Assembly (NCBI RefSeq): GCF_900187395.1
Contig: NZ_FYEZ01000001.1
Location: 1,302,001-1,366,000, forward strand
Source of the DNA: Kytococcus aerolatus
GTDB lineage: Bacteria > Actinomycetota > Actinomycetes > Actinomycetales > Dermatophilaceae
Direction: 5' to 3'
DNA: 64,000 nt
Below, piece after piece: positions 11,047-14,076 of the stretch (its first letter is position 1; every line of letters begins with the position of its first letter). The notes under the pieces are model-generated. The model did not search any database and had not been told where the DNA came from. It saw nothing but the letters and a program-made list of their open reading frames with translations. A program made the position numbers and the translations under genes.

Positions 11047-11274
11047 TCAGCCCTTGCGGACGGTGATGCTCCAGCTGGCGTCGCCGGTGCGGTCGAACTC
11101 GGTCACCTGGTGGCCGTGCTCGGCCGCCCAGAGCGGGAGCGACTCGGTGGCCTGCGTGCAGTCGAAGCCGATGACGAGCTCGTCGGCCGGCTCGAGCTGC
11201 TGCATGGCGCGGGTGGCCTCCTGCAGGGGGAAGGGGCAGACCTGCCCGGCGGTCTCGAGGGTGTAGCGGGCCAT
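11047..11274 (-). CDS. TusA-family sulfur carrier protein
   Basis: A 75-residue protein with the Cys-Pro-x-Pro motif (CPFP) near residue 13, whose Cys carries persulfide sulfur in TusA/SirA proteins. Length and fold pattern (GQVCPFPLQEATRAMQQLEPADEL) match the family. GAGGAGG stands before the ATG. It follows the YeeE/YedE gene by 80 bases on the same strand; this pairing is that of TsuA-TsuB thiosulfate uptake systems, in which the TusA-like partner is needed for transport or first use of the sulfur. The cytosolic acceptor here is unknown. Confidence 0.9.
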   Translation of the reverse strand: MARYTLETAGQVCPFPLQEATRAMQQLEPADELVIGFDCTQATESLPLWAAEHGHQVTEFDRTGDASWSITVRKG

Positions 11275-11354: not shown

Positions 11355-12446
11355 TCAGGCCGGGGTGAGGACCGGCGCGGGGCCGGCTGCGGCCGGGGAC
11401 GCCTCGGGCACGGCCTCGTTGACCGACGCACGGCCCGCCACGGCCACCCGGGCGGCCAGGCCCGCGCCGAGCAGCATCGCGCCGGTGGCCACCCAGCCCT
11501 CCCAGCTGAGCTGGGCGGTCGCCACCATGCCGTGGCCGACGGTGCACCCACCGGCCAGGGCGGCACCCACTCCCATGAGTGCGCCGCCGACGATGGACCG
11601 CTGGACGGTGGAGGCGTCGGGCACCCGGACCCGGAACTCGCCGCTGGCACGGGCGGCCACGTACGAGCCGGCCAGGATGCCGAGCACCAGCAGCACGCTC
11701 CAGTCGACCATCGCCAGGTCACCGGTGGCCAGGAAGTTCACGGCCTTGGCGGAGGGCGTGGTGATGCCGAGGCTGCCGACCCGGCCCGTCGCCGCGCTGA
11801 GCGGCCAGGCCACGAGGGCGATGGCGGCGATCACCAGGGCGGTGGCGAAGGGGTGCCAGCGGGCCTCCAGGAGCACCCGGGCGAGGCCGGAGCGGCGCGG
11901 CGGGAGGGAGGCGACGGCGGGACGGGCGGCGTCGCGGCGCAGGTGGTGCACCACCGCGGCCCCGACGAGGACGGCCAGGGCCGCCACGACGGTCCAGGCG
12001 GGGACGCCCAGCGTCGCGTCGATCGTGGTCGCGCCCACCGTCTGCTCGCGGGCCCAGGTGGTGAGCGGGGCGAGCGGGCCGTACTTCATGGCCGCGGCGG
12101 TGAGGGCGTACAGCACGAGGGCGAACCAGCTGCCCACGAGGCCTTCCCCGGAGCGGTAGTAGGTGCCGGTGGCGCACCCGCCGGCGAGGATGATTCCGAC
12201 ACCGAAGACCAGGCCTCCGACGAGGGCGGCGCCCAGCGGCAGCGGGTCGACCTGCGGGGTGACGACCCCGGTGGTGGTGAGGACGAGCAGGCCCACGGCG
12301 TGGGCGGCGATGACGACTCCGAAGGCGGTGAGCCAGCGGGTCGAGCCGGTGAGCCAGACGTCACGGAAGGCCCCGGTGATGCAGAAGCGACCGCGCTGCA
12401 AGACGAAGCCCAGGGCGAGACCGACGGCGAGGCCGGTGAGGATCAT
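11355..12446 (-). CDS. YeeE/YedE (TsuA-type) thiosulfate/sulfur transporter
   Basis: A 363-residue polytopic membrane protein. The three Cys-containing signatures of the family are present: RGRFCITGAFRD near residue 20, GGCATGTYYRSGEG around residue 95, and GGCTVGHGMV near residue 305. In characterised TsuA these cysteines relay thiosulfate through the pore. The ATG at 12446 is preceded by CAGGAGA. It heads a two-gene unit with the TusA-like gene. Upstream lies a short cysteine-ending leader peptide gene (12560-12649), so expression probably responds to cysteine or sulfur supply. A Pro/Ala-rich cytoplasmic tail ends the protein. Confidence 0.9.
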   Translation of the reverse strand: MILTGLAVGLALGFVLQRGRFCITGAFRDVWLTGSTRWLTAFGVVIAAHAVGLLVLTTTGVVTPQVDPLPLGAALVGGLVFGVGIILAGGCATGTYYRSGEGLVGSWFALVLYALTAAAMKYGPLAPLTTWAREQTVGATTIDATLGVPAWTVVAALAVLVGAAVVHHLRRDAARPAVASLPPRRSGLARVLLEARWHPFATALVIAAIALVAWPLSAATGRVGSLGITTPSAKAVNFLATGDLAMVDWSVLLVLGILAGSYVAARASGEFRVRVPDASTVQRSIVGGALMGVGAALAGGCTVGHGMVATAQLSWEGWVATGAMLLGAGLAARVAVAGRASVNEAVPEASPAAAGPAPVLTPA

Positions 12447-12477
12447 GCGTTCTCCTGACGAGGGGGCGCGCACGCGT

Positions 12478-12508
12478 CGTGCCCCCGGAGAGGGGCGGCG
12501 CGGGCACG
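12478..12508 (-). promoter_or_regulatory. Candidate attenuator hairpin between leader peptide and yeeE
   Basis: CGTGCCC (12478-12484) and GGGCACG (12502-12508) can pair around a GC-rich loop, between the leader peptide stop and the YeeE start. The stretch 12447-12559 is very GC-rich, so other pairings are possible. It is assigned only because it lies where a leader-controlled terminator or sequestering structure would be expected. Confidence 0.3.
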
Positions 12509-12559
12509 CGGGGTGGTGCGCCCCGGGGAGCCGGGGCAGGGGCGGTGCGGTGCGTCAGG

Positions 12560-12649
12560 TCACCGACAGGCGCTGGTGTGGGTGCGCATGAGGTCGACGT
12601 GGAGACGACGGACCAGGGGAGTGCGCGGGGTGGTGCGGTGGCGCGGCAT
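12560..12649 (-). CDS. Cysteine-responsive leader peptide upstream of the sulfur transport genes
   Basis: A 29-codon open frame, ATG at 12649 with AGGAGGAACG directly in front. The peptide is rich in Arg, Thr and His and ends RRLHVDLMRTHTSACR just before TGA. The H-V-D-L-x-R core and the terminal S-A-C-R match the short leader peptides found upstream of sulfur-assimilation genes in many actinobacteria. The Cys codon is the second-last sense codon. Ribosome stalling there when Cys-tRNA is low could alter RNA folding and release the YeeE/TusA operon; this mechanism is inferred from related leaders. The gap to yeeE is 113 bases. Confidence 0.82.
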   Translation of the reverse strand: MPRHRTTPRTPLVRRLHVDLMRTHTSACR

Positions 12650-12846
12650 CGTTCCTCCTGGTCTGCGTCTCGTGGCGTTGTGCCCGGCGAGGGGCACAGA
12701 ACGATAACGCACCGTGAGGACCTGCGTCACGTCTGGTTTCTTCTCTCCCGTCGGGGTCGCGCCTCCCGGACGGCAGGGGCGTGAACCACCCCGTGCCGGC
12801 CCGACCGTCTGCGCGGCGGCTTTCGTCGTAGGTGAAAATGGCTCGT

Positions 12847-14076
12847 ATGAAGGTCGTGAGCGCTGAGGCCCTGGCCACCACCCTGTCCGCCCTCCCCGGC
12901 GAGCCCCGCGTCGTCTGCTCCGGGAGCATGGCCGCCCCCGGGGCCGGGCTCGAGGTGGTGGACGGCGCGCTCGAGCGCTACACCCTCCACGCGCTGAACG
13001 CCGCCCCCGGCCTGCCGGAGCGCGAGGGCGTCACCCTGGAGACCTGCTTCGTCGGCGGCGGGCAGCGTCGCCGCCCCGGGCTGCGCTACGTGCCCTGCCG
13101 CCTCTCCCTGGTGCCGCTGCTCTTCAGCAGCACCCTGCCCCCGGACGTCGTGCTCGTCCACGTGGCCCCGCCCCGGGACGGCATGGTGAGCCTGGGTGTG
13201 GAGACGAACATCATGCCAGCGGTGGTCGAGGCCTGCCGCGCCCGTGGTGGGCTGGTCGTCGCCGCGATCAACCCGCGCATGCCCTACACCTTCGGCGACT
13301 CGCAGATCCCGGTCGAGCACATCGACCTCGCCCTGGAGATCGACGAACCGCTCACCACCCCGGGGGAGGTTCCGCCGCTGGACGAGGCCGGCCAGGTGAT
13401 CGGCGAGCGCATCGCGGCCCGCATCGGCGACGGCGCCACCCTGCAGACCGGCATCGGCGCCATCCCCGACGCCGTGCTCAGCCGCCTGGGCGACCGGCGC
13501 GGGATGCGGGTGTGGACCGAGATGTTCAGCGACGGGGTGCTGGCCCTGGATCGGCTCGGGGCGCTCGACGAGTCCGAGCCGATCGTCTCCTCGTTCTGCT
13601 TCGGCTCCACGGAGCTCTACGAGTGGCTCGACGGCAACGAGCGCGTGCGGATGCTGCGCACCGAGCGGACGAACGATCCCGGGCTCATCGCCCAGCAGCC
13701 GGCCATGGTGTCCATCAACTCGGCGCTCGAGGTGGACCTGTTCGGCCAGGCCAACGCCTCCCGGATCGACGCCCGGATCCACTCCGGGTTCGGCGGGCAG
13801 ACTGACTTCATCGTCGGCGCGCTGCACTCCAAGGGTGGGCAGAGCCTCATCGGGCTGCGCTCCTGGCACCCGAAGGCGGACGTCTCCACGGTGGTGCCGC
13901 TGCTCGACGAGCCGGTGACGAGCTTCCAGCAGACCGCCATCGTCACCGAGCAGGGCGTGGCCGAGCTGCTCGGGCGCTCCGAGCGGGAGCAGGCGGCGGC
14001 CCTCATCGAGCAGGCGGCCCACCCGCGGGTCCGCGAGGAGCTGTGGGACGAGGCCCGGGAGCTCGGCTTGGCCTGA
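12847..14076 (+). CDS. Acetyl-CoA hydrolase/CoA-transferase family protein
   Basis: About 409 residues, homologous to acetyl-CoA hydrolase and 4-hydroxybutyrate CoA-transferases. GATLQTGIGAIPDAV and VWTEMFSDGVLAL contain the conserved Gln/Gly loop and the catalytic Glu that forms a glutamyl-CoA intermediate; GFGGQTDFIVGA belongs to the C-terminal domain. It either hydrolyses a short acyl-CoA or moves CoA between acids; sequence does not separate these. The start is uncertain: GTG 12832, ATG 12838 and ATG 12847 are in frame, and AGGTGA at 12830 best serves 12847. The GNAT gene begins 13 bases after the stop. Confidence 0.85.
   Translation: MKVVSAEALATTLSALPGEPRVVCSGSMAAPGAGLEVVDGALERYTLHALNAAPGLPEREGVTLETCFVGGGQRRRPGLRYVPCRLSLVPLLFSSTLPPDVVLVHVAPPRDGMVSLGVETNIMPAVVEACRARGGLVVAAINPRMPYTFGDSQIPVEHIDLALEIDEPLTTPGEVPPLDEAGQVIGERIAARIGDGATLQTGIGAIPDAVLSRLGDRRGMRVWTEMFSDGVLALDRLGALDESEPIVSSFCFGSTELYEWLDGNERVRMLRTERTNDPGLIAQQPAMVSINSALEVDLFGQANASRIDARIHSGFGGQTDFIVGALHSKGGQSLIGLRSWHPKADVSTVVPLLDEPVTSFQQTAIVTEQGVAELLGRSEREQAAALIEQAAHPRVREELWDEARELGLA

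Follow-up and report, generated by a model that had tools for sequence, protein, structure and literature searches.

A frame of 29 codons lies upstream of the thiosulfate transporter genes in the DNA of Kytococcus aerolatus analysed here, a stretch of 64,000 nucleotides referred to as the window. This frame probably encodes a leader peptide through which tsuA-tsuB would respond to the supply of cysteine. We arrive at this reading because the frame has a strong Shine-Dalgarno sequence, an HVDLxR...C framework and an in-register UGU codon by its stop, because a C-rich interval of 113 nt follows it, and because its family stands before sulfur genes. The leader is real and probably functional, a known kind at a new target, with a score under the formal model cutoff. 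The new part of the present work is that the leader family is locked to the UGU spelling of one cysteine codon, and the interest for the specialist lies there. No mention of this lock was found in the literature searched; it may still be known.

The leader frame and its operon

The features of the leader and of the genes behind it are the following:

12701-12730, minus strand: possible promoter GTGACG-18-TATCGT, found by eye only
12654-12659, minus strand: leader Shine-Dalgarno sequence, AGGAGG, separated from the ATG by 4 nt (from sequence)
12560-12649, minus strand: leader ORF (from sequence; NF042934 E-value 9.7e-5, 21.9 bits)
12584-12601, minus strand: HVDLMR block, the conserved HVDLxR (alignment of 79 leaders)
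12566-12568, minus strand: UGU cysteine codon, the proposed sensing codon, at offset 11 from the His and second codon before the stop
11355-12446, minus strand: tsuA/yeeE, thiosulfate transporter family (PF04143, E-value 4.7e-98; best NCBIfam model TsuA, E-value 6e-103)
11047-11274, minus strand: tsuB/yeeD, a tusA-like sulfurtransferase (PF01206; NF041048, TsuB/YeeD, E-value 1e-32)

The frame runs from 12649 to 12560, has 29 codons followed by TGA (MPRHRTTPRTPLVRRLHVDLMRTHTSACR) and ends with RRLHVDLMRTHTSACR at the C-terminus. From its stop to the ATG of tsuA/yeeE there are exactly 113 nt. The earlier note had described a 29-codon frame with a good ribosome binding site that stops 113 nt ahead of YeeE/TusA genes, and coordinates, AGGAGG and spacing all hold. 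An alternative GTG start farther upstream would give a frame of 56 amino acids; the natural start is the ATG with the strong Shine-Dalgarno sequence. A consensus (sigma-70-type) scan found no promoter at the locus, not even the possible one listed above.

Both downstream genes score below the curated cutoffs of their best NCBIfam models, TsuA and TsuB/YeeD. In E. coli, YeeE and YeeD are described as acting jointly in thiosulfate uptake (PMC11073785), and the name thiosulfate uptake operon is therefore sound. The leader is placed on the same strand before the sulfur-acquisition gene tsuA, as the functional class of actinobacterial cysteine leaders requires. The divergent neighbour (12841-14076, plus strand) belongs to the acetyl-CoA hydrolase/transferase family (PF13336) and is apparently unrelated to sulfur.

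The combination of HxDLxR with an in-register Cys codon gave one match in the 64-kb window versus none in 100 shuffles. The TGT form of this pattern has exactly two matches in the whole 2.4-Mb genome, and the reversed control has none. The second match is the leader MPVVLTRRLHVDLGRSPAFRC on contig 5 (about 120857..120795, minus strand; L014 1545..1480; L098), which ends in UGU-stop; it and the window leader both have TGT at the Cys. It precedes a symporter whose best NCBIfam models are carriers of the SDF type (DctA, GltP), plausibly a cystine carrier.

Family membership and distribution

The leader peptide matches NCBIfam NF042934, 'putative leader peptide', about 5 bits short of the 27 bits at which that model assigns a name, and automatic annotation by NF042934 would therefore probably miss it. 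Its layout is that of NF042934 (cis_reg_atten): a short ORF with the RR-x-HVDLxR...C core towards its C-terminal end, the Cys in the same register, and a position before actinomycete sulfur genes. It differs in its low score and in having T at offsets 6 and 8, where Val and Ser, respectively, are usual.

Matches of the NF042934 type were found in 198 of 297 genomes of the class, versus none of 14 control genomes. The genes behind 81 surveyed leaders are mostly for sulfur. They comprise 18 sulfite reductases, seven CysH, six TsuA, which were picked via TsuA and are not independent, and five SDF symporters; the remainder includes sulfonate, sulfatase and flavin genes. The symporter behind MPVVLTRRLHVDLGRSPAFRC is among the five of 81 with the Pfam SDF domain. 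The likeness to leaders of actinobacterial sulfur genes, which had been claimed from the motif, is thus borne out by the NF042934 match together with hundreds of related leaders, from about 300 genomes, before sulfite reductase, CysH, TsuA, sulfonate and sulfatase genes.

At tsuA itself the picture is mixed. The motif proposed for a search before tsuA in relatives is present at five tsuA genes outside the genus: L010, L074 (Georgenia), L085 (Mobilicoccus massiliensis), L089 (Tessaracoccus) and L096 (Propionibacteriaceae). The tsuA gene of the congener and most other tsuA loci examined have no leader. This patchy presence, and above all the missing leader of the congener, gives the sequence the look of a movable control module.

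It is very improbable that the frame arose by chance or is a small ORF without function. The congener without a leader and the score below the curated HMM cutoff would agree with such a reading; the empty shuffles, the strong Shine-Dalgarno sequence and a genome with just two matches, both TGT and one before an SDF symporter, speak against that reading.

Other elements occur upstream of tsuA in relatives. In one of them a SAM-IV riboswitch stands in the leader's place (L008 1322-1430 and L034 2822-2930, apparently the same record region). In relatives of the window's family, a palindrome CATAA-N7-TTATG is found upstream of tsuA and also of sulfite reductase genes that have a leader (L005, L007, L009, L011, L012, L028, L085, L154, L158); it is probably the operator of an unnamed sulfur regulator, and it is absent from the window.

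A cysteine codon locked to UGU

The Cys codon 11 residues past the His is TGT in 76 of 78 cases (86 non-redundant leaders), and also in L010 and L085, two further leaders beyond the 78. In neighbouring genes TGT accounts for 15 of 200 Cys codons (93% TGC), and elsewhere in the same leaders Cys is written TGT 11 times and TGC 53 times (Fisher p 2e-25 for the bias at offset 11). Strict thinning to 25 dissimilar sequences left TGT at offset 11 in all 25. A second subfamily (RRAVDLCRV...C), which includes polycysteine leaders of the mycobacterial kind, has TGT in 34 of 34 at the same register and mostly TGC at its other offsets (31/34 at offset 4, 23/30 at offset 9, 7/8 at offset 10). A pattern search free of the HMM over 198 genomes matched 120 of them with TGT and 11 with TGC; the TGC matches are mostly chance, and only about two of them resemble leaders.

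In the leaders, the codons for the conserved residues His, Asp, Leu and Arg are used roughly as in the background, so that the peptide appears to be selected as a peptide and the Cys as a codon. A near-invariant spelling that is otherwise avoided in these genomes points to the offset-11 codon as the sensing site. That cysteine is the signal, as first suggested from the motif and the terminal pattern of the window frame, gains strength from this fixed register and rare spelling.

It could be argued that UGU is kept as an RNA motif, through pairing or a bound factor, and not for decoding, with translation of the leader merely exposing or covering it. The Ser codon at offset 8 is indeed biased as well (AGC in 57 of 69 versus 28%), and UGU is usually followed by C and then G. 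We nevertheless consider this unlikely. RNAalifold on 79 leaders gave neither a conserved fold nor pairing covariation, the flanks vary between the two subfamilies while UGU stays constant, and UGU always codes for Cys in frame, at a constant spacing to a peptide motif with roughly background codons.

For decoding, one tRNA-Cys with anticodon GCA was seen among 30 of the 46 tRNA matches and their neighbours that were scanned. With this tRNA, UGC is decoded through standard pairing and UGU through G-U wobble. The genome also has a miaB gene, and the window leader contains a single Cys residue, with no run of Cys codons. It is possible, and we put it forward tentatively, that the family is a nascent-chain-assisted sensor keyed to one fixed-register UGU, not a counter of Cys codons, and that UGU may in addition signal whether tRNA-Cys carries its sulfur-dependent ms2i6A37 modification. 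If so, one codon would report both cysteine and sulfur status.

The interval between leader and gene

The following features lie between the leader stop and tsuA:

12447-12559, minus strand: leader-to-gene interval of 113 nt, C-rich, candidate Rho-loading region
12553-12559, minus strand: CCUGACG, adjoining the leader stop; its sequence complements the tsuA Shine-Dalgarno region, with which it is paired in the MFE fold
12520-12537, minus strand: hairpin GCCCCGG-CTCC-CCGGGGC with no T-run behind it
12454-12460, minus strand: CGUCAGG of the tsuA ribosome binding site, which pairs with CCUGACG in the MFE fold

The first 93 nt of the interval have about 54% C and 31% G, and the C-over-G skew in the window is 0.27. 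Family-wide, the skew after the leader is 0.239 versus 0.02-0.04 in controls (p 4e-13), the control genes coming partly from other, less GC-rich lineages. The C-rich, G-poor interval that characterises a Rho-dependent attenuator is thus found in the window, and its composition fits loading of Rho.

A classical attenuator with an intrinsic terminator was rejected: the terminator scan of the locus gave none, and the hairpin at 12537..12520 has no T-run. A minority of loci have strong hairpins; the mean z is -0.5. No Rfam elements were found at the locus.

Another possibility is that the main effect of the leader is on the tsuA ribosome binding site, which would be masked by pairing of the post-stop CCUGACG with CGUCAGG of the Shine-Dalgarno region until a stalled ribosome frees it. 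This corresponds to the published view of the M. smegmatis leaders, for which translation attenuation by such masking is reported (PMC13236596), and in the window the pairing is part of the MFE fold. The earlier note had proposed folding with and without a stalled ribosome. With the ribosome footprint masked, opening the Shine-Dalgarno region in the window costs 4.0 instead of 5.5 kcal/mol; such relief was not supported across 49 loci (p 0.58). The effect is small, the window fold is ordinary (z -1.4), and neither duplex energies nor opening cost show an excess over control blocks across 49-63 loci, so that masking was rejected as a family-wide device. We regard it as a doubtful main mode of action, though a less remote one than an RNA motif at UGU.

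Comparison with known systems and proposed mechanism

The polycysteine leader sORFs of mycobacteria (Shell 2015, PMC4633059; NF042936, Ms4527A) belong to a related subfamily that shares the RRxVDLxRV frame and the same-register UGU. The window leader differs from them in having one Cys, in its downstream thiosulfate transporter, and in the AGGAGG before its ATG, with which it is not evidently leaderless. PMC9031893 and PMC13236596, citing Canestrari 2020, report the M. smegmatis polycysteine leaders as cysteine-responsive attenuators. The cys leaders of Mycobacterium, P. acnes and B. longum (Seliverstov 2005, PMC1262725) likewise have Cys codons by the stop and no clear terminator, but they carry runs of Cys codons and precede cys operons or cbs; Rho was suggested for the mycobacterial ones in that paper. 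The uORFC-8-2 motif before cysS in Rhodobacterales (PMC8632094) also has Cys codons in a leader, but is UGC-dominated, with tandem Cys and an intrinsic terminator.

From the sequence patterns above, the sensor part of a cysteine-supply attenuator that turns on a single codon read by wobble appears well supported, and Rho, a hairpin or masking of the ribosome binding site are candidates for its output step. When Cys-tRNA is short, the ribosome would halt with UGU in the decoding site, and both the slow reading by wobble and the conserved nascent HVDLxR segment, then inside the exit tunnel, would contribute to the halt. A slow codon combined with this nascent segment may render the halt responsive to a modest loss of Cys-tRNA. 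Since it would stand two codons ahead of the stop (mostly 0-4 in the family), the halted ribosome would shield the stop codon and the first part of the interval. The message may then remain open for tsuA, because Rho could not reach its loading site or because the Shine-Dalgarno-masking pairing is held apart. With enough cysteine the ribosome would finish and leave, and expression of tsuA-tsuB would drop.

If this holds, thiosulfate uptake joins sulfite reductase, CysH and other actinomycete sulfur genes under translation-based cysteine control. The locked UGU also offers a single base to change for testing cysteine sensing in a widespread, little-studied leader family: UGU to UGC leaves the same peptide and the same tRNA, and only the reading of the codon differs.

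E. coli tnaC may be alike in a halt near the leader end followed by a C-rich Rho-loading interval. It differs in the opposite expected sign and in the amino acid, and arrest in the window leader is only hypothetical. An arrest peptide of this sort, which would bind free cysteine or another sulfur compound and stall at abundance, seems quite improbable here. In its favour, HVDLxR is kept at the peptide level and at a fixed distance, the interval past the stop is C-rich as in tna, and at some loci the downstream gene is a cysteine dioxygenase. Most downstream genes, however, serve the synthesis or import of reduced sulfur and would be expected to be off when cysteine is high, and the sensing of a free ligand has no need of UGU over UGC. 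Mycobacterial leaders, moreover, reportedly respond to cysteine limitation.

The dioxygenase stands behind a leader variant of the Streptomyces type, RRVHMDLVRYAGCVC, which is found at L174, L185, L214, L226 and similar loci. At L174 the gene behind it was confirmed as cysteine dioxygenase, which consumes cysteine and fits poorly with a scheme in which low cysteine turns the gene on.

Two further arrangements were observed among the leader loci. Divergent leader pairs lie on opposite strands about 130-170 nt apart (pattern matches) at L108, L119 and L211, each leader facing its own gene. At L189 (about 240-320) a tandem repeat of the leader end and stop (CCATCTGTCGGTGACCCCGCTCCGCGT) follows immediately 3' of the leader.
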